DNA from: Methanobacteriota archaeon | GTDB lineage: Archaea > Halobacteriota > Methanomicrobia > Methanomicrobiales > Methanospirillaceae | Assembly (NCBI GenBank): GCA_029547605.1 | Contig: JAKPPB010000083.1 | Coordinates: 1 to 51,295, forward strand | Length of the DNA stretch: 51,295 nt | Reading direction: 5' to 3' | Part shown: in pieces, positions 24,804-35,304 of the stretch | Position numbering within the stretch: the stretch's first letter is position 1 | Layout: every line of letters begins with the position of its first letter | Position numbers and translations under genes: made by a program | The notes under the pieces: model-generated | Databases searched by the model: none | Seen by the model: the letters and a program-made list of their open reading frames with translations, nothing else | What the model was told of the DNA's origin: nothing

Positions 24804-25808
24804 TCATCCCTGAGATACCCAGGCCCTTGTCCCTTCCTGCTGAAGCAGCGCATCGGCAAGTACAAGGGCAAGCATCGCCTCCGCAACAGGGGCCAGCCGG
24901 GGGACGATGCAGGGGTCATGCCTTCCGCGAACTGAGATCACTCGCCCTTTCCCGCCGGTGTCAACGGTCCGCTGCTCCCGGGAGATCGAAGGGGTCGGTT
25001 TTACCGCTATCCGCACCACGATATCTTCGCCAGTGCTGATACCTCCCAGGATCCCTCCCGCATGGTTGGAGAGGAAGCCATCCTCATCCATCTGGTCATT
25101 CTGTTCGCTGCCCCGCATCCTTGCCGCGGCAAACCCTTCCCCAATCTCCACGCCCTTGACAGCGCCGATGGAGAGCATTGCCATCCCGATCATGGCGTCG
25201 AGCTTCCCAAAGACCGGGTCCCCGAGGCCTGGGGGGCAGCCACTCGCAGTAACCTCAACAATTCCACCCACAGAGTCTCCGATTTCCATGGCATGCTCTA
25301 TTTCTTTCTCCATATCTTGCGGGCTGGTGCAGCCGTGAATCTCAAGGATCCTGCTCCCGATCCTGATACCCCGTATCCCAAGCATCTTTGCCGCTACTGC
25401 GCCTGATGCAACCCGGGCAACCGTCTCGCGTCCCGAACTCCTTCCGCCGCCCCGGTGGTCACGTATTCCGAACTTCTTCCACCAGGTATAATCCGCGTGG
25501 CCGGGCCTGAACACCTCCCTGAGCGCCTCGTAATCTTCCGCGCGGAAATCGGCATTCCTCACGACGATGGCAACAGGGGCTCCGGTGGTCCGCCCCAAAA
25601 AAACGCCTGAAAGTATCTCAACCCGGTCCTCTTCCCGGCGCGTCGACATGAGCGGGCCTTTCCCCGGTCTCCTCCTGTCGAGGAACGGCTGAATATCGTC
25701 TCCGGAGAGTTCGATCCCGGGAGGGCACCCGTCAATCACGACACCAAGTGCGGGGCCGTGGCTCTCTCCGAAGGTGGTGATCCGGAATGAGCGGCCGAAC
25801 GTATTCAT
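24804..25808 (-). CDS. aroC: Chorismate synthase
   Basis: A 334-residue FMN-dependent chorismate synthase that eliminates phosphate from EPSP. Family signatures: [20 protein letters not shown] at the start, [38 protein letters not shown] and [20 protein letters not shown], and [20 protein letters not shown] near the end. Slightly shorter than the usual 350-380 at the C-terminus but with all motifs. Its ATG overlaps the stop of the aroK-aroE fusion (ATGA). It is the last gene of the aro operon. Confidence 0.95.
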
Positions 25809-27190
25809 CCCAGGATCTCCCTTATCATGCCGAGCGGGGCATCGATGCCGGTGAACTGGCGGAACTGGGCCTTTGCCTGCCGGACGAACATCTCCCTCCC
25901 AGGGATCACGGTGCAGCCAGCGCCCCTTGCGGCCCTTATCAGTGGTGTCTCGGGAGGGGTGTAGACGAGATCGAAGACCGTCATGCCAGGGGCAAGATCT
26001 GACTTCGAAAGCGGGCTCGCCGTATCGGGCTCCATGCCTACGGGGGTCGCATTCACCACCACTTCAGGTTTTATTCTGCCGAAGTCGCGGATCGAGCCAT
26101 AATGGCAGCCCAGGCGCCCAGCAAGCCTCTCGGCCCGCTCGACCGTCCGGTTCAGAAGCGTGACTTCCATGTCAAGCGACAGGAGGGCATAGGCCGCTGC
26201 AGCCGCGGCACCCCCGGCACCAAGGATCACTGCCCTGCTTCCGCGTGAGGGTCCCAGAGGATCCCTGATACCTATCCAGTCAGTGTTATAGCCGTAGGAT
26301 TCGCCCCCGCAGAAGACCACGGTGTTACATGCACCGATTGCCCTGCTGTGGGCATCTATGTGGTCAAGGTGCCTGAGGATCTCCTGCTTGAACGGGATCG
26401 TGACCGAGAGACCGCGCACGTCAAGGTCCCTTGCGATTCCCAGTATGCGGGTCAGTGCCGGGTCATGGAACCTCGTATAATACGCATTGACCTCGAAGTA
26501 GGTGAAGAGGTGCTGAAATAAGGAAGGGCTTCTGCTGTGAAGGCTCGGGTACCCCGCGACACCGAAGATCCGGAGGACAGGGTTCCCGGCGAGCGCGTCA
26601 ACCCTGGCTGCGAGCTCCTCAACCTCCGGACGCGGGATACCTGATCCTGCGACTGCGAGAAGGGCCTCCCTCCTCGCCCCCTCTTTCGTCCCCCCTTCCA
26701 TCAGGAGGCGCTTGATACCAATGGCAACCTCGTTTGCACTCCGGGCGCTGGTGTCGATACAATAGTCCGCCGCCGCCAGGTATGCGTCCTTTCGGGCTTC
26801 GAGGAGGGCATGGATCTCTGCCCGCAACCCCATCCTGGTCAGCGCGGGACGACTGCCATGCTGGATGCGCTTCTCGATGGTTGCCTCGTCTGCCTGGAGG
26901 AGGACCATCGTTCTCCCCCTTCGGAGATGCTCCACGTTCTCGGGATCGATGACTGCACCTCCCCCTGTGGCAAATACCCCGGGACCGCGCGGGAGATCCG
27001 CGATCGCCCGTTTCTCGCGTTCCCTGAACCCGGCCTCCCCCTCTCGTTCGAAGATCTCATGGACAGTGGCCCCTGCCTCTTGTTCGACAAGCGCATCGGT
27101 ATCATAGAAAGGGACGTCGAGAAGATGTGCGAGCAGCCTGCCCGACTCCGTCTTCCCCGTCCCCCGAAAACCTATCAGCACGACGTTCAT
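25805..27190 (-). CDS. aroK/aroE: Bifunctional shikimate kinase - shikimate dehydrogenase fusion
   Basis: A 461-residue fusion. Residues 1-165 are a P-loop shikimate kinase of bacterial AroK/AroL type: Walker A GFRGTGKT (7-14), FYDTDALVE (shikimate-binding Asp), [14 protein letters not shown], and SRPALT in the lid. Residues about 195-461 are shikimate dehydrogenase: [24 protein letters not shown] with the catalytic Lys, ACNTVV, YNTDWIG with catalytic Asp, the NADP loop [14 protein letters not shown] and VVNATPVGM. Most archaea use an unrelated GHMP-type shikimate kinase, so this half looks acquired. Both ends overlap neighbours by 4 nt. Confidence 0.92.
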
Positions 27191-28455
27191 ACCAGTCCCT
27201 GCCCTGCAAGCTGCTCCCAGAACCCCGGGAAGGATTTACTGACACATTCCGCCTGGGTTATCTTTACGTTTCCCATCGAAAGTCCGAGTACCGCAAAACT
27301 CATCGCAGTCCGGTGGTCATCACCGGGGTCTATCCTTCCCCCGTGCAATGGGGCTGGTCTTATGACCAGTGCATCCCCCTCGATGCTCACATCGCCCCCA
27401 AGGCTTCGTAGGAGCGTCGTGGTAGACTCCAGGCGGTCGCTCTCCTTCCACTTGAGGTGGGCGATCCCGGAGATCCTGGTCGGGCTCCTGGCCTTCGACG
27501 CGACCATGCAGAGTGTCTGCACCGTGTCCGGGGACGAGGACATGTCGATCTCGATCCCCTCCAGGTCTCCCTCGCAGGAGACCTCGACTGACTCTCCAAG
27601 GCTCCTCACCCTGCACCCCATCGACTCGAGGGCTGTCAGGAACCGCCTGTCCCCCTGGCAGGAGGAGGGGTTCAGGTTTCCGACCCGGACCCTGCCACCG
27701 CAGAGCGCTGCGAGTGCAAAGAAATAAGATGCAGACGAGTAGTCCCCCTCGATCTCGTATGTCCTTCCATTGTACGGGATCCGGGCGGCTACGTGGAAAC
27801 GCCGGTATCCCTCCCTCCCAACCGTCGCTCCGAAGGCCTCCATCACCGAAAGTGTGACGTCGAGGTACGAGGGAGATGCAACCCCTGGGTCGAGATCCAG
27901 GACCACATCCCGGTGGGCATATGGTGCCGCCATCAGGATCGAGGATACGAACTGGCTGCTCATGCCTGCATCCACCCGCACACGCCCCCCCGTGAGTCTC
28001 CCCGAGACTTTCACCGGAGGAAATCCCGTCTTCTCCATGAACTCGATGCTCCCGCCAAGGGCGGTCAGTGCGTCCGCAAGGGGGCCGAGCGGGCGCTCCT
28101 TCATCCGGGGGGAACCCGTGAGGATCACAGGGTTGTTACAAAGGAGCGCGACAGAAGTGAGCAGCCGCATGCTCGTCCCGGAGTTGTGCATGTTCATAAC
28201 AAGCCCTGGAGGACAGCAGAGGGTTCCACCCGTGCCCCTGACCCGCGAAGAGCGCTCCCCCGCTATGATCTCCACACCCATTCCCATGAGGGCTTCTCTT
28301 GTTGCCGCGATATCCTCTGCTTCCAGTGGATTTGAGATGAGAGAATCGCCCACGGCAAGGGAGGCGGCTATCAGCGCCCTGTGAGTGTAACTCTTTGAGG
28401 GTGGCGCCTGGAAGTTGAGGTCAACATTCCCTGCCTTTCGAAGCGTTACTTCCAT
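27187..28455 (-). CDS. aroA: EPSP synthase (3-phosphoshikimate 1-carboxyvinyltransferase)
   Basis: A 422-residue enzyme joining shikimate 3-phosphate and PEP. Motifs: PPSKSYTHRALIAASLA with Lys and Arg for substrate binding, NSGTSMRLLTSVALL (the PEP-loop family motif, with MHNSGTSMR), SSQFVSSILMAAPYA, EGDYSSASYFFALAALCGG and LKWKESDRLESTTTLLRSLG, then DDHRTAMSFAVLG. Start overlaps the end of pheA by 10 nt and its stop overlaps the aroK-aroE fusion by 4 nt. Confidence 0.95.
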   Translation of the reverse strand: MEVTLRKAGNVDLNFQAPPSKSYTHRALIAASLAVGDSLISNPLEAEDIAATREALMGMGVEIIAGERSSRVRGTGGTLCCPPGLVMNMHNSGTSMRLLTSVALLCNNPVILTGSPRMKERPLGPLADALTALGGSIEFMEKTGFPPVKVSGRLTGGRVRVDAGMSSQFVSSILMAAPYAHRDVVLDLDPGVASPSYLDVTLSVMEAFGATVGREGYRRFHVAARIPYNGRTYEIEGDYSSASYFFALAALCGGRVRVGNLNPSSCQGDRRFLTALESMGCRVRSLGESVEVSCEGDLEGIEIDMSSSPDTVQTLCMVASKARSPTRISGIAHLKWKESDRLESTTTLLRSLGGDVSIEGDALVIRPAPLHGGRIDPGDDHRTAMSFAVLGLSMGNVKITQAECVSKSFPGFWEQLAGQGLV

Positions 28456-29243
28456 TCCGGGACCTCCAGCGTGGGATATCTCCCAAGATCCTTGACTGCC
28501 GTCATCCCTTTGAGTTCACGGACTGCCTCTTCTGAATTTCCGTTGTACACGAAATCGAGAAAGAAGACATAACTCCCCATGCCCCGCTTGGACGGGCGCG
28601 ACTCGATCCTGGTGAGGTTGATGCCCCTTCGGGAGAAGATCCCGAGGATATCGTGAAGGAGACCCGCACGGTCCTTTCTTGGGTCGATGATGATGCTCCC
28701 CTTCGCTGCATCAGGCCCAGAATACCTCGCTGAAGAGATGGTCACGAAGCGGGTGATGTTCCGCTGGTTATTCTCCACCTGTTCGCGCCTGATCGGAAGG
28801 TCATAAAGGCGGGCGGTCATCAGTGACACGATGGCCGCACTCTTCACCGTACGCCGCATCTCCATCGCGCTCTGGGCATTGCTCGGCGTATGCACGACAG
28901 GTATCTCGAGGGCGTCCACTACCTCGCTGCACTGCTCGTGAGTCTGGGGATGGACGTAGAGCACCTCCGCCTCTTCGAGCGGCTTAAAGGAGACGAGGTA
29001 GTGGTGGATAGGCATGTACAGTTCTCCCGTGATCCAGACCTCGTGCTGGAGCAGCCCGTCCAGGGATGGCCCTACACCCCCCGCCTCGCTGTTCTCCAGG
29101 GGGACGAGTCCCGTTCCCTCTCCCTTCTCCACAGCCTCGAAGATGCGCCGGATGGTAGAGACGAGGGTGACCCGGTCTCCAAATACGCGCCAACCCAGTT
29201 CGTGGCTGAACGTGCCCTCCGGTCCGAGTACGAATACCTTCAT
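28446..29243 (-). CDS. pheA: Prephenate dehydratase with ACT domain
   Basis: A 265-residue PheA that turns prephenate into phenylpyruvate for phenylalanine. Catalytic domain: LGPEGTFSHELG at the start, VPLENSEAGGVGPSLDGLLQ, HPQTHEQCSE, the catalytic stretch NITRFVTIS. The C-terminal ACT domain (IDPRKDRAGLLHDILGIFSR, RGINLTRIESRPSKRGMGSY, VFFLDF) contains the ESRP motif that binds phenylalanine for feedback inhibition. No chorismate mutase domain is fused. Overlaps tyrA by 4 nt. Confidence 0.94.
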   Translation of the reverse strand: MKVFVLGPEGTFSHELGWRVFGDRVTLVSTIRRIFEAVEKGEGTGLVPLENSEAGGVGPSLDGLLQHEVWITGELYMPIHHYLVSFKPLEEAEVLYVHPQTHEQCSEVVDALEIPVVHTPSNAQSAMEMRRTVKSAAIVSLMTARLYDLPIRREQVENNQRNITRFVTISSARYSGPDAAKGSIIIDPRKDRAGLLHDILGIFSRRGINLTRIESRPSKRGMGSYVFFLDFVYNGNSEEAVRELKGMTAVKDLGRYPTLEVPEWK

Positions 29244-30070
29244 TTCCTCACCATGGACGCAATTAGCAGGTCAGACTCCATGGCTGCCTTCTGGCAATAC
29301 GTCCCGAAGTGCTGCGCATTCTTCTTAAATACCTCTTCAAAGGCATCGGTGTCCCGGGCCCCAATGATCTCCCGCAGGGATGAGAACGCGCCCTCGCATG
29401 CCTCGATGACAGGTATCACATGGGGGTTCTGGCCGAGGATATCTGCATAGAGGCGGGCGTCCTGTGAGAGGAGCCTTCCCACGAGACTCATCTCCATCTG
29501 GTAGACCGGGCTCATGAATGCCAGGGTGTCTTCCGGCTTGACTCCCACCCTCCGCATTGTCTCCGCCATACCGAGAGTGACAAAGTGGATCAGTCCCTGC
29601 ACCACCGCCATGATCCTGTCATGCTCCTCAGGAGTGGAGATGGTCACCCTTGCCCCCTGGGACCTGAAGACCTCGAGGAGGAGATCGAGGGTTTCCTGGG
29701 TGCAGCGCGCAGGGGTCGCGATGATGGTCTGTCCCGGGAGGCCATGTACGGTGGGCCCAAACATTGGGTGAAGACCCACCACCTGGGCCCGGGACGCGAG
29801 CATCGCCTCTACCGGCCCGGTCTTCAGTGAGGTGAGATCGCAGAATAACTGATCTTCTGAGAGGAGTGGGGCAACCGAGCGGATCACATCGATCGTCTCC
29901 CTGATGGGCACCGATACCATAATGACATCGCAGGCCTCTGCGACGTCCGCGGGACTCCTCGGGGTGCTCCTCCCTGCAACCTGCACCTCCCACCCCGCCC
30001 TCTCGAATACCTGCCTGAAGAACGCACCCATCCTGCCGGTTCCACCGATGATCCCGATCTTCACCTGCAA
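29240..30070 (-). CDS. tyrA: Prephenate dehydrogenase
   Basis: A 276-residue TyrA, oxidatively decarboxylating prephenate to 4-hydroxyphenylpyruvate for tyrosine. NAD-binding loop IGIIGGTGRMGAFF at the start, VMVSVPIRETIDVIRSVAPL, LTSLKTGPVEAM, GLHPMFGPTVHGLPGQ with the catalytic His, and HDRIMAVVQGLIHFVTLGMA. No ACT and no chorismate mutase domain. The start is either the TTG at 30070, with GGAG 6 nt upstream and immediately after the aroB' stop, or the GTG at 30064 (MKIGIIGG); both are plausible. Overlaps pheA by 4 nt. Confidence 0.93.
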   Translation of the reverse strand: MQVKIGIIGGTGRMGAFFRQVFERAGWEVQVAGRSTPRSPADVAEACDVIMVSVPIRETIDVIRSVAPLLSEDQLFCDLTSLKTGPVEAMLASRAQVVGLHPMFGPTVHGLPGQTIIATPARCTQETLDLLLEVFRSQGARVTISTPEEHDRIMAVVQGLIHFVTLGMAETMRRVGVKPEDTLAFMSPVYQMEMSLVGRLLSQDARLYADILGQNPHVIPVIEACEGAFSSLREIIGARDTDAFEEVFKKNAQHFGTYCQKAAMESDLLIASMVRK

Positions 30071-31057
30071 TCACTTCTCCAGGATCTTCTCCCTGACCGC
30101 CATCCCAAAGTGGCGGCCGGCCTCCTTGAGGCATCCCATTACCCTGTCTCCCGGAGAGATCTCGACGACTGAACGGGCACTCCCGTCATCTCCCACCAGG
30201 CGGATCGTCTCGGCATTCTGCAGGACAAGGCTGTAAGTTCTCCCCTCTGCCTCGGCCTCGACGATAAGGAGCGGCCTCTGCTCAATCTTCACCCTCCCGA
30301 CCGTCACCTCCCTTGTACTGCCATCGGCCCCCACCACCAGCACTCGGTCTCCGGCAGCAAGATCTGAGAGATAGGCCGTCTTTCCTCCGGAGGAGAGGAT
30401 ATAGGCATGTACTGCCCCTGCATTGACACGGAACGGCCTCGGGGCCACGTAAGGGTTCTCCAGCGTTTCTGCGTGGACGAGGAGGAATGCCGAAGAGGTA
30501 TTGCCAACGAGCATCCCCTCCCCTTCTTTCAGCATTGAACAGGTATCGACGCAGACCCTGTCCCCCATCCCCACCGGTCGGATCGCGGTGACCGTGAACG
30601 GTACCATGGCACATCGTTCATTACCACGGTGCACCAGAGACCCCGTCTCTTTCACCACCTTTGGGTCTCCTGTCTGGAGCAGGATACCTGCGACCCCACG
30701 CTCAAGCACCTGGAGCGCCAGTTCTGCCTCGTCTGTATCATGAACCAGGGCGATGATACGATCTGACTGGGCCACAAGGTTCTCGAGAGGGATTACCGCC
30801 CAGTCCTCTGTACTGACGATGACGTATCCACTCCTTGCGAGGATGGCTGCCTTCTCCTCGCTCTCCTTGCCGGCAATCCTCACCTCCCAGACGTCCCTGC
30901 CAATCGCGAGGTCCCCGTCAGGGGCCACAACGCGGACCCTGCCAAGCGCCTTCACACTGCCGCTCTCATCAGCGACAATGGTATCAGCTCCGCTTTCAAG
31001 GGCAGCAGTCACCACTTCCTTCTTCCAAGAGCGGGCATCCACCCAGAACTCCTTCAT
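30071..31057 (-). CDS. aroB': 3-dehydroquinate synthase II (archaeal AroB')
   Basis: A 328-residue NAD-dependent archaeal enzyme converting ADTH to 3-dehydroquinate by oxidative deamination and cyclisation; unrelated to bacterial AroB. Signatures: [20 protein letters not shown] at the start, KVKETGSLVH-like region VVKETGSLVH, ITAIRPVGMGDRVCVDTCSM near residue 200 (TVTAIRPVGMGDRVCVDTCS), FRVNAGAVHAYI and GKTAYLSDLAAGDRVLVV. The ATG at 31057 overlaps the previous stop (ATGA); the open frame before it is not protein-like. Confidence 0.95.
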   Translation of the reverse strand: MKEFWVDARSWKKEVVTAALESGADTIVADESGSVKALGRVRVVAPDGDLAIGRDVWEVRIAGKESEEKAAILARSGYVIVSTEDWAVIPLENLVAQSDRIIALVHDTDEAELALQVLERGVAGILLQTGDPKVVKETGSLVHRGNERCAMVPFTVTAIRPVGMGDRVCVDTCSMLKEGEGMLVGNTSSAFLLVHAETLENPYVAPRPFRVNAGAVHAYILSSGGKTAYLSDLAAGDRVLVVGADGSTREVTVGRVKIEQRPLLIVEAEAEGRTYSLVLQNAETIRLVGDDGSARSVVEISPGDRVMGCLKEAGRHFGMAVREKILEK

Positions 31058-31839
31058 CCCGCCTCCCTGAGCGCCTGCTCCGGGTCTGCCTCCTCGTGCA
31101 CGACGCGGCAGAGGGCCTTGACGAATGCCCGTGTGTTCTCCCTCTGGAAGGCGTTCCGTCCTACACAGACACCCGCCCCGCCCGCCCTCACGGAGTCGCG
31201 TATTATCTGGAGCGTCTCGAGGTCCCCTGCCTTCTCTCCACCGGCAATGAAGACCGGTACTGAACACGAAGTGACGATCTTCCTGAAAGAGACCGGGTCA
31301 CCCGTGTAATTGGTCTTTATGAGATCGGCGCCAAGCTCCTCGGCGACCCTTACGCAGTGCCCGACCGTTGCGGGCGAGTTGGGATCGATACCCTTCCCTC
31401 TGGGGTAGATCATGACAAGCAGGGGGATTCCCCAGCGGTTGCAGTCCTTGACCACCTTCCCCGCGGACTCAAGCATTTTCGACTCGTTCGGGGCCCCGAG
31501 GTTGATATGGATGGAGACCGCGTCTGCGCCGAGCGCCACCGCCTCCTCGACGGTGCAGACCAGCACCTTGTCGTTCGGGTCAGGATTGAGGGATGTGCTC
31601 CCTGAAAGATGGACAATCAGTCCGATGTCTCTTCCCCTTCTCCGATGCCCTCGTTTGACGATCCCCTTATGCAGGACGATCGCGTTCGCTCCACCCTCGC
31701 TCACCTCCGAGATTGTCGTGGTCATGTCCAGCAGCCCTTCAATCTGTCCCAGCGTGAACCCATGGTCCATGGGAACGATCACGGACCGCCCAGTGTTCCG
31801 GTCCATGATCCTCTCAATACGAATCTCTTTTCCAATCAT
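31054..31839 (-). CDS. ADTH synthase / DeoC-like class I aldolase paralogue 2
   Basis: A 261-residue member of the archaeal DhnA/FbaB-type aldolase family, to which belong ADTH synthase (aroA' of the archaeal shikimate pathway) and the fructose-bisphosphate aldolase that also provides the DKFP precursor. Key features: [20 protein letters not shown] with the catalytic Asp, [27 protein letters not shown] with catalytic Tyr, LIKTNYTGD with the Schiff-base Lys, and [10 protein letters not shown] and [10 protein letters not shown] in the phosphate site. It is coupled on both sides by 4-nt overlaps. Which paralogue makes ADTH and which makes DKFP or is a plain aldolase cannot be read from sequence. 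Confidence 0.85.
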
Positions 31840-32636
31840 CTTCTCTTCTCCTTCACAATCTCCAGTGCTTCTTCCGCCGAGCACCCACGGTGGACGATCT
31901 CTGCCGCGGCACGTACAAAGCGGTCCGGTGCAGGGTGCTGGAAGGCATTCCGCCCGATTGAGATCCCGGCGGCACCCCCTTCCATCGCCCCCTCTATCAA
32001 CTCCAGGGTGGCAAGGTCGCTCGTCTTAGAGCCTCCCGCCACTACCACGGGAACCGGGCAGCCCCTTGTCACCAGGCGGAAACTGTCCGGGTCACCGGTG
32101 TAGACCGTCTTTACGAGGTCAGCCCCAAGCTCCGCTGCAACTCTTGCGGCAAGGCAGACATGCTCGACCTGGTGCTCGTCCTTGATCTTCCTCCCTCTCG
32201 GGTACATCATCGCAAGGAGCGGCATCCCCCACTCCATGCAGTCGATTGCCACCCGCCCGAGGTCAGAGAGCATCCTCGCTTCGGAGTCCGCCCCGATGTT
32301 CACGTGGATAGAGACGGCATCGGCCCCCATTTTCAGGGCGCTTGTCACAGAGTTCACCAGTACCTTCTCGTTCGGGTCAGGCCCTATGGAGGTGCTTGCT
32401 GAGAGATGGAGGATCAGTCCCACATCCCTCCCGCTCTTCCGGTGACCATACAGAGACAGGCCGACGTGTCCAAGGACGGCATTGGCACCCCCTGTCGCCA
32501 CAAGGTCGACAGCTCTCCCTAGGTCAATGAGGCCCTCTATAGGGCCGTTGGTCACCCCGTGGTCCATGGGGACAATGATCGTCTTGCCGGTATTCCGGTC
32601 CATGATGCGTTCCAGGCGAATTTCTTTTCCTCTCAT
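31836..32636 (-). CDS. 2-amino-3,7-dideoxy-D-threo-hept-6-ulosonate (ADTH) synthase-like aldolase, paralogue 1
   Basis: A 266-residue homologue of the next gene, sharing [42 protein letters not shown] with the Schiff-base Lys, and [10 protein letters not shown]. It differs at many positions (for example [15 protein letters not shown] against [15 protein letters not shown]), so the pair is an old duplication rather than a recent copy. ADTH synthase condenses DKFP with aspartate semialdehyde to start archaeal aromatic synthesis. It is the first gene of the operon; GGGAG at 32647-32643 lies 6 nt before the ATG. The leader upstream contains an aromatic-rich peptide and probably controls it. Confidence 0.87.
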
Positions 32637-32687
32637 GTAACACTCCCATCCATCCAGCGCATTTGTATGAGAAACGGCCGATGGAAT

Positions 32688-32822
32688 TCAGTAAAAATAC
32701 CAGAAATAACCAAAATAGCGGTGATAGCGGGAAAGTGCCGCAGCTAATGGCTTATTGTTCAGAAGGACAGTTTCGTTGATGCACGGTGCAGGCGCCAAGC
32801 TAAGGGAGATAAAAACACTCAC
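32688..32822 (-). CDS. Aromatic-rich leader peptide of the aro operon
   Basis: An ORF in the leader whose last 14 codons read CGC TAT CAC CGC TAT TTT GGT, then TAT TTC TGG TAT TTT TAC TGA, that is RYHRYFGYFWYFY-stop. Nine of the last 12 residues are Phe, Tyr or Trp. Translated from the GTG at 32822 it has 44 residues; another in-frame GTG is at 32840 and TTG and CTG codons lie further in, and none has a clear Shine-Dalgarno site, so the start is uncertain. The stop lies 52 nt before the first aro gene. The composition matches leader peptides that make ribosomes stall when charged aromatic tRNAs run short. Expression is not proven by sequence. Confidence 0.65.
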   Translation of the reverse strand: MSVFISLSLAPAPCINETVLLNNKPLAAALSRYHRYFGYFWYFY

Positions 32823-32847
32823 CGGCGAAAAAACACTCACCTTGCAT
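32800..32847 (-). CDS. Possible leaderless mini-ORF MQGECFFAGECFYLP at the transcript start
   Basis: The only ATG close to the predicted transcript start (32847) opens a 15-codon ORF with the sequence MQGECFFAGECFYLP. It contains a GECF repeat encoded by the tandem 18-nt repeat, three Phe-rich positions (FF and FY) and two Cys. It overlaps the aromatic leader ORF in another frame. It could be a leaderless peptide that feeds ribosomes into the leader, or a by-product of a DNA-level repeat. Confidence 0.35.
   Translation of the reverse strand: MQGECFFAGECFYLP
32811..32841. repeat. Tandem 13-bp direct repeat, 18-bp spacing, downstream of the aro promoter
   Basis: AAAAACACTCACC occurs at 32811-32823 and again at 32829-32841 (plus-strand reading), an exact copy with an 18-bp period. 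It lies just downstream of the predicted transcript start of the aro operon, where a repressor could block polymerase. The same bases encode repeats in both mini-ORFs. Confidence 0.7.
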
Positions 32848-32870
32848 TGAATATCAAAATGGAACGACCA

Positions 32871-32881
32871 TGTATATAAAA
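32871..32881 (-). promoter_or_regulatory. TATA box of the aro operon
   Basis: On the minus strand the sequence reads CTTTTATATACA, a near-perfect archaeal TATA box (consensus TTTATATA). It predicts a start about 25 nt downstream near 32850. It lies 240 bp upstream of the first aro gene, which is why the leader is long. No gene on the plus strand would use it. Confidence 0.7.
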
Positions 32882-32909
32882 GTGATGAGGTTTCCCGTGG
32901 GCCTTTCCC

Positions 32910-33401
32910 TCATTTATGGACCTTCTTGATGGAGATCACGTCTCCCAGGGTCGGGACTACCGTCCCTCCGCCCCGCTTCCCTTCATCATCTGCAGGAGAG
33001 TCGATCAGCCTGATGCCAAGCGCTTTCTCAAGTTTTCTCCGCACTTCGTCCTCGGGGATCAGGTCTCCCTTCTCGATCTTCTTGATCAGCAGTTCCTTCT
33101 CCTTGAGCTGCATCGCAAGATCCTTCTGCGAGAGTCCCCTCTCCATCCGGGCTGCGCGTATGCGTTCACCGTAATCTTCAACGATTTCGCCCTCGATCAG
33201 GTCAAAAACATCCTTCGAGCGCCTGACGGGGACCGATCTCCCTGCGCGGGGGCCAGTCCCGGCACGCGGCTGTGCCCTTGCAGTCATCTGCACCTCGGTC
33301 CCATATCGGGCACAATTGGCGCAGACTACGAGCTCGGCTCCCTCCACCCGTACGGTCTTTGAAGGGCCGACAATCTTCCCTCCGCACAATTCGCACTGCA
33401 T
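32910..33401 (-). CDS. mbf1: Multiprotein bridging factor aMBF1
   Basis: A 163-residue archaeal MBF1. The N-terminal zinc ribbon is Cys3-x2-Cys6 (MQCELCGGK) and Cys27-x2-Cys30 (VCANCARYG). A variable basic linker (PRAGTGPRAGRSVPVRR) leads to the conserved XRE-type HTH core at about residues 78-133 (RIRAARMERGLSQKDLAMQL, KEKELLIKKIEKG). aMBF1 binds the small ribosomal subunit and may bridge TBP. The ATG at 33401 is preferred to 33428 because the TATA box at 33434-33443 would start transcripts near 33412. Divergent from PAN. Confidence 0.92.
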   Translation of the reverse strand: MQCELCGGKIVGPSKTVRVEGAELVVCANCARYGTEVQMTARAQPRAGTGPRAGRSVPVRRSKDVFDLIEGEIVEDYGERIRAARMERGLSQKDLAMQLKEKELLIKKIEKGDLIPEDEVRRKLEKALGIRLIDSPADDEGKRGGGTVVPTLGDVISIKKVHK

Positions 33402-33433
33402 ACTCGTCGCAAACATCTTTATAGACATTTTTC

Positions 33434-33443
33434 CCTATATACT
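33434..33443. promoter_or_regulatory. Shared TATA element between aMBF1 and PAN
   Basis: CCTATATACT lies in the 58 bp between the start codons of aMBF1 (33401) and PAN (33460). Read rightward, it would start transcripts at the PAN ATG itself (leaderless mRNA). Read leftward as AGTATATAGG, it would start aMBF1 about 10 nt before its ATG. The TATATA core is symmetric, so one TBP site may serve both. Confidence 0.55.
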
Positions 33444-33459
33444 TATTTGAGGCTGAAAA

Positions 33460-34698
33460 ATGGTGGAAAGCGCCCGCCAACCCCAGGAACCCCAGAACCC
33501 CGAGGAGCTCTACCGGTATCTCCTGGACCGGGTCACCAACATGGAGACCCGCAACCTGGAACTGCGCGAGCAAATCCGCCAGATCGAGTCGGACAAGCGC
33601 TATATCGAGACCCAGAAGATACGGTACGAGCGGGAAGTAAGAAAGCTGAAGAGCGAGATAGAGCAGTTGAGGAGTCCCCCGCTCGTCATCGGGACTGTTA
33701 CCGATGTGCTGGACAACGGGAGAGTAGTAGTCAGGAGCAGTGCCGGCCCGAGGTTCATGGTCAGGAGTTCCATGTGTATAGACCCCGAAAAACTGAAACC
33801 CGGCGCCAGGTGCACACTGAACCAGCAGTCACTTGCGGTGATCGACGTCCTTCCCGAGAGCTACGATGCCCAGGTGTACGGCATGGAGGTGGTGGAGAGC
33901 CCTGATGAGACATATGCGGATATCGGGGGCCTGGACCCCCAGATCAACGAGCTGAGGGAGGCTGTGGAGCTCCCGCTGAAGAAGCCCGAACTCTTTGACC
34001 GTATAGGGATTGAACCTCCAAAAGGGGTTCTCCTGCACGGTCCGCCGGGGACGGGAAAGACCCTTCTTGCGAGGGCCGTCGCCCATGAGACAAATGCGCA
34101 CTTTCTGCGGGTGGTGGGATCTGAACTCGTCCAGAAGTACATCGGAGAGGGGGCCCGCCTGGTCCGGGAGCTCTTCGACCTTGCGCGAAAGAAAGCCCCG
34201 ACTATCATTTTCATAGATGAGATCGATGCAGTGGGCGCTTCCCGGACAGAAGCTACCACCTCCGGCGACCGCGAAGTGCAGAGGACTCTTATGCAGCTTC
34301 TTGCCGGGATGGACGGCTTTGAGCGGCGTGGCGACGTCAAGATTATCGGGGCGACCAACCGTATCGATATCCTTGATCGGGCGCTGCTTCGGCCCGGCAG
34401 GTTCGATCGCATCATCGAGATACCCCTCCCCGATATCCAGGGCCGTATTGCCATCCTTGACGTCCATACCAGGAGGATGCGCCTTGATCATGGCGTCGAT
34501 CTTTCCGAGATCGCCGCCATGACCGAGGGGAAGAACGGAGCCGATATCAAGGCAATCTGCATGGAGGCAGGTATGTTCGCGATCCGGAAAGACCGGGATG
34601 CAGTCTCAAAGGAGGACTTCCTGGACGCAATCGAAAAGATCGGTCTTGACTTCGACCGACACATCTACAAGAGCGGATATGGAGCAATGTTCGCGTGA
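33460..34698 (+). CDS. pan: Proteasome-activating nucleotidase PAN (paralogue 1)
   Basis: A 412-residue AAA ATPase that unfolds substrates into the 20S proteasome. Residues 15-70 form the N-terminal coiled coil ([20 protein letters not shown]), 75-135 the OB ring ([20 protein letters not shown]), then the AAA module: Walker A GPPGTGKT (194-201), pore loop KYIG (226-229), Walker B IIFIDE (249-254), and arginine fingers in LLRPGRFDR. The C-terminus is YGAMFA and lacks the HbYX tripeptide (hydrophobic-Tyr-any) that normally docks PAN into the 20S gate. ATG is probably at the transcript start. An oligo-T terminator follows. Confidence 0.93.
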
Positions 34699-34721
34699 AT
34701 AAAATTCTCCTCATTTATTAA

Positions 34722-34730
34722 TTTTTTTTT
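34722..34730 (+). terminator. Oligo-T terminator after PAN
   Basis: Nine T residues in a row 24 nt after the PAN stop codon, preceded by an A/T-rich stretch. Archaeal RNA polymerase terminates at such T runs without needing a hairpin. No gene follows for about 270 bp. Confidence 0.6.
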
Positions 34731-34998
34731 CCGGCTTCCTGCATCCTGACCTTGGAAATGCACCCTTGATGGAGCACACTTCTTCTCTTGCAACAAAAAT
34801 AAACTCAATTCACCATTTCATGCGATTGAGTGAAATGCCCGTGTGTAATCGTTACCAAACCGGGGGTTACTACGGGGTCGAAAAATGAAGATTGAGAATG
34901 ATACTTCAGGTATTATAAAATTCTTAAAAAAAAGTATGCGGCAAGCACCAAAGGTTTTATTAACCTCCCCATGCTCTTCTCAATTACAGGTGTACATC
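34731..34998 (+). promoter_or_regulatory. Intergenic region with nested inverted repeats and mscL promoter
   Basis: No gene is seen in this gap. ACTCAAT (34803-34809) has its complement ATTGAGT near 34827-34833, and CATTTCA (about 34815-34821) pairs with TGAAATG just after it, giving two mutually exclusive hairpins. A TATA-like TTTTATTAAC near 34951-34960 and AGGTG before the start codon probably drive mscL. Whether the repeats regulate it is unknown. Confidence 0.4.
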
Positions 34999-35304
34999 AT
35001 GAGCATTGTAAAGGAATTTATGGACTTTTTATACGAGTACAAGGTCATCGGGCTCGCCATTGCATTTATCATGGGCCTGGCGGCAAACCAGCTCGTAAAA
35101 TCCCTCGTTGATAACATCATCATGCCAATCATCACCTTCTTCATCCCAGGTGGAGACTGGCAGACCGCGAAACTGGCTCTCGGCCCGATTGTCATCAGCT
35201 GGGGACAGTTCCTGGCAGACCTGATCTACTTCATCATCGTTGCGTTCGTGATATTCCTGATCGCAAAGAAAGTGCTCCGCGAGGACAAGGTCACGAAGAA
35301 GTGA
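34999..35304 (+). CDS. mscL: Large-conductance mechanosensitive channel MscL
   Basis: A 101-residue MscL-like channel that opens under membrane tension to release solutes during hypo-osmotic shock. N-terminal amphipathic helix (MSIVKEFMDFLYEYKV), TM1 (IGLAIAFIMGLAANQLVKSL with the small-residue face and the conserved ANQL), a short extracellular loop, TM2 (FLADLIYFIIVAFVIFLIAK) and a short charged tail. Shorter than E. coli MscL (136) mainly in the loop and C-terminal helix, as in other archaeal homologues. ATG 34999 has AGGTG upstream; the longer open frame back to 34885 is not membrane-like. Convergent with the next gene (14-nt overlap). Confidence 0.85.
   Translation: MSIVKEFMDFLYEYKVIGLAIAFIMGLAANQLVKSLVDNIIMPIITFFIPGGDWQTAKLALGPIVISWGQFLADLIYFIIVAFVIFLIAKKVLREDKVTKK

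Follow-up and report, generated by a model that had tools for sequence, protein, structure and literature searches.

A candidate aromatic amino acid-sensing leader with a predicted +1 frameshift upstream of an archaeal aro operon in the order Methanomicrobiales

The window analyzed here, a 51,295-nucleotide stretch of DNA from an archaeon of the Methanomicrobiales, carries eight consecutive minus-strand genes, all of which Pfam assigns to the aromatic pathway. This agrees with the original prediction, made from the sequence of the window, that the genes produce chorismate, phenylalanine and tyrosine. Two DeoC/LacD-type aldolases are among the products; we take aldolases of this type to be the archaeal form of ADH synthase, and the first gene, aroA', to encode that enzyme. 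The features of the operon and of the region upstream are collected in Table 1. An ATG at position 32847 (minus strand) lies about 210 nt upstream of the aroA' start at 32636. The 16S-type 3' end TGGATCACCTCC occurs once in the genome. A gene for a helix-turn-helix protein (32910-33428, minus strand) lies directly upstream in the same orientation and adjoins the aro promoter.

Table 1. Positions of the aro operon and of the proposed regulatory features in front of it.
Feature	Position	Strand	Description or evidence
TATA box TTTATATA	32873..32880	minus	first base 33 nt before the ATG
Frame-0 upstream ORF, MQGECFFAGECFYLP then stop	32800..32847	minus	ATG in 107/107 repeat-bearing leaders
Frame +1 leader reading frame, ending in RYHRYFGYFWYFY then stop	32688..32846	minus	open from the ATG region
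Proposed +1 slip site 1	32827..32841	minus	SD-like GGTGA, TTT in P site, TTC (Phe) in A site
Proposed +1 slip site 2	32808..32823	minus	GGTGA, TTT in P site, TAT (Tyr) in A site
Aromatic codon run with stop TGA	32688..32729	minus	tail RYHRYFGYFWYFY then stop
Hairpin 5' arm TTCCATCGGCCGTTT	32672..32686	minus	pairing, co-evolution
Hairpin 3' arm AAATGCGCTGGATGG, ending beside the Shine-Dalgarno sequence	32650..32664	minus	pairing, co-evolution
Shine-Dalgarno sequence GGGAG of aroA'	32643..32647	minus	read from the sequence
aroA', first gene of the operon	31836..32636	minus	2-amino-3,7-dideoxy-D-threo-hept-6-ulosonate synthase type, DeoC/LacD family (Pfam)
Remaining operon	24804..31839	minus	second aldolase, DHQ synthase II, prephenate dehydrogenase, prephenate dehydratase, EPSP synthase, shikimate kinase/dehydrogenase fusion, chorismate synthase

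The 3' end of the leader reading frame reads CGC TAT CAC CGC TAT TTT GGT TAT TTC TGG TAT TTT TAC TGA, so that its last 12 codons specify five Tyr, three Phe and one Trp, exactly as first described. Shuffling the 211-nt leader 5000 times with its dinucleotides preserved never gave nine aromatic codons within 18 before a stop (maximum 8), which bears out the earlier view that an origin by chance is unlikely. We located aroA' in 60 relatives and then across the Methanomicrobiales, and read 134 distinct upstream regions. All six families sampled have leaders that end in an aromatic run, and the proposal that such a run should be kept in related genomes is thus upheld. Among 125 distinct leaders, the last 12 codons contain a mean of 6.5 aromatic codons, the other two frames averaging 1.3 and 2.3; read in frame, with the start ATG as anchor, each of these 12 positions is aromatic in 33-87% of leaders, falling to a few percent further upstream. 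Residue order and codon use vary freely, the run ending in FFGYYRYFFAYFFSFGFWYRF in one genus, in FFAFFGFYYQFYYYWY in another and in YRYFNWFSQF in yet another family, each directly before the stop. The peptide sequence, the codons and the flanks of the run differ among families and the aromatic identity of the codons is conserved, a pattern indicating that selection acts on Phe, Tyr and Trp codons and not on a peptide. The few leaders without a run belong to divergent aroA' copies in two genera (L059-L061) or lie at contig ends, and named records with the same leader include many metagenome-assembled genomes (MAGs) of Methanolinea and Methanoregulaceae. The leader ORF thus shows two features expected of ribosome-mediated attenuation, clustered codons for the end products of its operon and conservation of these codons in place of a peptide.

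The ATG is out of frame with the aromatic run in 107 leaders, the run occupying the +1 frame. Frame 0 of the window reads ATG CAA GGT GAG TGT TTT TTC GCC GGT GAG TGT TTT TAT CTC CCT TAG, and an ORF of 14-15 codons is found in this frame in 97 of the 107 leaders (MQGECFFAGECFYLP then stop in the window, MCGECFFAGECFYR then stop elsewhere, for example). It contains two repeats, with the patterns GGTGA-nYG-YTT-TTY and GGTGA-nnG-YTT-TAY, of which the SD-like part varies. The genome carries the 16S-type 3' end given above, and GGTGA is therefore complementary to its anti-SD. At both sites the codon placed in the P site is TTT or CTT followed by T in 107/107 leaders, which permits re-pairing in the +1 frame; the codon placed in the A site is always Phe at site 1 (TTC 94, TTT 13) and always Tyr at site 2 (TAT 81, TAC 26). 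A frame-0 stop follows the Tyr codon of site 2 within four codons in 104/107 leaders, as against 29/107 in frame 2, and these early stops use TAG, TAA and TGA. Both overlapping frames are thus constrained and the slippery codon YTT-T is conserved, as would be expected of +1 frameshifting. The T runs near 32830 and 32812, which had been read as possible terminators, fall inside the two conserved repeats, where frameshift sites account for them better than terminators do.

Each genome has the repeat pattern essentially once, at the aro leader. In a collection of 84,980 species, the exact two-repeat pattern was found only in records named Methanomicrobiales or unclassified Euryarchaeota, plus one contig (L211, JALONU010000028.1) filed in a Bacteroidales MAG. 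This contig bears an archaeal aro leader and operon, on which ground we regard it as mis-binned; a helix-turn-helix gene lies upstream of aroA' there as well. In one leader (L122) the 18-nt repeat is present three times; Ser-Ser replaces the Phe codons in the first copy, and the second and third retain Phe and Tyr.

In most of the Methanomicrobiales the first base of the TATA box lies 30-33 nt before the ATG (33 nt in the window), so the mRNA is probably leaderless or nearly so. The N-terminus M-[CR]-G-[ED]-[CR] is common to leaders with and without the repeats, which argues that the ATG is the start codon in both classes. The start originally assigned, GTG at 32822, is accordingly doubtful, the conserved start being the ATG at 32847, in the other frame and 33 nt after the TATA box.

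Comparison with leaders that lack the repeats provides a natural test of how the two frames are joined. In all 20 such leaders the ATG is in frame with the aromatic run; the frame is joined in the DNA of relatives without the signal, as is expected where +1 frameshifting operates in the others. The aroA' tree requires seven changes between the two leader states, at least three of them on well-supported branches. In L034, compared with its relative L021, CTT TAT CGC at site 2 has become CTT ATC GCT through the deletion of one T, and the deleted base is exactly the one that a +1 shift would skip. Genus g31, compared with g33, has lost one base at site 1, so that MCGEC runs directly into LPV of frame +1. 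T runs are prone to insertions and deletions, yet these deletions yield one continuous reading frame, as the frameshift model predicts. The joined frames of the repeat-less relatives, together with the one-base deletions, constitute the strongest evidence for a +1 frameshift, a case built from sequence comparison. On the same tree, the aroA' of genus g29 (family f6) and its leader fall within genus g25 (family f2) (L128 and L131 versus L051, L055 and L129), and the leader tails are very similar, with SYQFWFRQ before the stop and a CTGCACC hairpin; horizontal transfer of the gene together with its leader is probable.

Three other accounts of the repeats and the two frames were weighed. The leader could begin at GTG 32840 or 32822, both of which sit within frame +1, and overlap a separate ATG-started small ORF, giving plain attenuation with no frameshift. 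The first of these positions is GTG in 102 of the 107 leaders and ATG in four, and between the repeats frame +1 is conserved (VFSPV), its Pro codon varying almost only at the third base; both frames look constrained in this interval, which leaves room for a second start at GTG 32840. We nevertheless consider this arrangement unlikely: one genome has GTA at the first position and three lack the second GTG, such a start would be only some 8 nt away from the predicted 5' end and would have no SD in front of it, and neither the invariant out-of-frame ATG, the YTT-Phe and YTT-Tyr pairs and the early frame-0 stop nor the frame-joining one-base deletions at both slip sites would be explained. The GGTGA..TTTTT repeats could instead form the DNA operator of a repressor, with the aromatic run secondary, as they are direct repeats 18 bp apart just past the predicted transcript start, with three copies in L122. 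An operator does not predict that loss of the repeats goes with an ATG in frame with the run, the repeat length is a multiple of three and the variation is largely synonymous in frame 0, so that this account appears very improbable. Slippage of the polymerase, rather than of the ribosome, on the T runs would also join the frames, and runs of five or six T are present in most genomes. Site 2, however, is CTTTA (three T) in 22/107 leaders and site 1 is CTTTT (four T) in 8/107, and runs of three or four T are too short for efficient transcriptional slippage as known elsewhere; we give this account next to no weight. A +1 shift of the ribosome is the reading followed below.

In most genera a hairpin begins a few bases past the stop of the leader; its 3' arm either extends as far as the SD of aroA' or overlaps it. 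The pairing of TCCATC, just past the stop, with GATGGA, noticed at the outset in the window, is real and belongs to this conserved hairpin. The hairpin sequence differs between genera, and two separate tests were therefore made. In Methanolinea and its near relatives, 87% of cells are paired in the stem, compared with 32-45% in slid controls, and 11 cells have changed on both sides of the stem; one of 500 shuffles came as high. A multi-family alignment of the hairpin is too divergent for column-wise covariation, so for 56 clusters across the order arms were swapped between genomes: arms from the same genome pair with a mean of -13.5 kcal/mol, against -9.6 with swapped arms (z = -10.5), and none of 2000 permutations came near. 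These results show that the hairpin is preserved by compensating changes and that its arms co-evolve across genera. The co-evolving arms thus define a structure between leader and first gene that is predicted to be able to block expression. For its base composition the window's hairpin has ordinary stability (z = -0.5), hairpin energy being unremarkable in the window's own genus, and the predicted fold leaves the SD GGGAG unpaired, just beyond the stem. A systematic search for an alternative, antisequester pairing, which would let ribosome position choose between two mutually exclusive structures, found none that was well supported; a weak signal (z about -2.7) came from the 5' arm and a segment lying 40-58 nt ahead of the stop as partners. 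A known RNA family (riboswitch, T-box or other) was also considered and set aside, as an Rfam search of positions 30000-35000 gave no match at the leader and only two chance-level hits elsewhere.

The position of the ribosome could alternatively decide whether the polymerase stops, by T-run or factor-dependent termination, rather than whether the SD is accessible. Transcription termination at T runs is established in archaea, and in genera g25, g29, g18 and g23 a strong post-stop hairpin is followed by T-rich sequence and lies at a distance from the aro start. In these four genera and part of g5, 100-230 nt separate the hairpin from the aro start. Masking of the SD is therefore not a universal rule, and for such genera transcription attenuation is as likely. 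For the system as a whole we think it rather improbable: in most genera, including that of the window, the hairpin ends at or overlaps the SD and no U tract follows. In the window's genus the mechanism looks translational, acting through the hairpin at the SD region, rather than dependent on termination at T runs.

Taken together, these comparisons make it probable that the region is an aromatic amino acid-sensing leader, or attenuator, of the archaeal aro operon that starts at the ATG and is continued into the aromatic run by a +1 frameshift. The original prediction of ribosome-mediated attenuation is thereby retained in its central part, supported by the conservation of the run and the co-evolution of the hairpin at the SD, and revised as to the GTG start and termination at T runs. 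In the proposed mechanism, ribosomes would begin translation of a nearly leaderless mRNA at its ATG. With charged tRNA-Phe and tRNA-Tyr plentiful, frame 0 would be read past TTC and TAT to the stop after about 15 codons, and the hairpin would form and mask the SD of aroA'. With these charged tRNAs scarce, the ribosome would pause with TTC or TAT in the A site, and the P-site tRNA could slip by +1 from YTT to TTT, carrying the ribosome into the aromatic run; by lingering there, at the foot of the hairpin, it would open the hairpin and allow the aro genes to be translated. We infer the stalling of ribosomes on the leader and, from the biosynthetic function of the operon, the sign of the response, with starvation switching the operon on. 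A weak point of the scheme is that a ribosome stalled on the first aromatic codons would be too far upstream to open the hairpin; under partial limitation, slow passage over the whole run would place a ribosome at the hairpin part of the time. That starvation-responsive +1 frameshifting at the Phe and Tyr codons serves as a first sensor, gating a second sensor formed by the run at the SD hairpin, has in our estimate an even chance of being correct. "Hungry" frameshifting under limitation of aminoacyl-tRNA is documented (PMC8211752, PMC5009743).

The bacterial pheL-pheA, trpL and hisL systems likewise combine a short leader ORF, rich in codons for the products of the operon, with a downstream hairpin by which the first gene is controlled. 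The present leader differs in being archaeal and probably leaderless, in mixing Phe, Tyr and Trp codons, in having its hairpin at the SD in most genera instead of an intrinsic terminator, and in placing the start ATG and the run in different frames. The +1 frameshift of E. coli prfB (RF2) uses an SD-like sequence, one spacer codon, re-pairing of YTT with TTT and a slow A-site codon. An SD-like sequence, a spacer codon and a YTT able to re-pair at +1 are found here too, whereas the A-site codon is Phe or Tyr and not a stop, two sites stand in series, the register of GGTGA to YTT differs and the product is a leader peptide rather than a protein. In the ermC system, the start of the next gene is masked by a hairpin until translation of the leader opens it, and in the presence of telithromycin shifted ribosomes read on and unfold the mRNA at the downstream start (PMC5009743). 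Translation of the aro leader, including that by shifted ribosomes, would open a start-masking hairpin in a comparable way, but in an archaeon, at conserved, programmed shift sites, and with shortage of aminoacyl-tRNA in place of an antibiotic as the signal. Frameshifting in a phenylalanine-operon leader, proposed here, is also described for E. coli pheL, at CCC_UGA and as incidental (PMC5009743); here, by contrast, a whole order has kept both the sites and the stop that follows them. For archaeal cellular genes, a 2021 review that also covers haloviruses lists a single case of -1 frameshifting, S. solfataricus fucA1, and an archaeal +1 frameshift is only suggested, for the virus HSTV-2 (PMC8211752). 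These cases have recoding in archaea in common with the frameshift proposed here; none is regulatory.

No comparable leader precedes aroA' at 28 loci from other orders of the phylum, and the aromatic leader therefore looks like an innovation of the Methanomicrobiales. Many of these 28 loci have a palindromic, operator-like element near the aroA' start. Palindromes of this type, GTGCTACTATGTCACATACTAACAC or ATGCTATAGCATAGCA for instance, are found at aroA' promoters of other orders and of some Methanomicrobiales (L281-L300, L034, L036, L039, L043, L053 and L059); they are likely to be transcription-factor operators. A long, Trp-rich leader of the aromatic type was not found before trpE. The trpE start (L092-L121) does carry a conserved motif, GGTGATGCC[GAC][GC]TGGA[AC]TGG, present once per genome in 43/80 genomes and located at G000:C119:97290-97308 (L117) in the window's own genome. 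Its ATG opens a frame reading M-P-[VL]-[DE]-W, soon followed by a stop (directly after MPVDW in L118), which overlaps the open frame of TrpE and lies downstream of TGTACA (TrpY-like) boxes. This mini-ORF is a candidate Trp-sensing element.

An archaeal leader-peptide attenuator was not found in searches that covered the open literature. Leader-peptide attenuation is known in kind, being a textbook bacterial mechanism; what would be new is the domain, the hairpin at the SD on a probably leaderless mRNA and the gate by frameshift, and we know of no two-step sensor of tRNA charging in any domain of life. If the interpretation is true, the leader would be, within the literature searched, the first ribosome-mediated attenuator in archaea and the first chromosomal +1 programmed frameshift in this domain. 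Through the arrangement of its frames, regulatory +1 frameshifting in archaea can be tested on natural variation across a whole order, with the natural one-base deletions as ready-made controls. A conserved archaeal case would show that the sensing of amino acids through the speed of the ribosome is not limited to bacteria.
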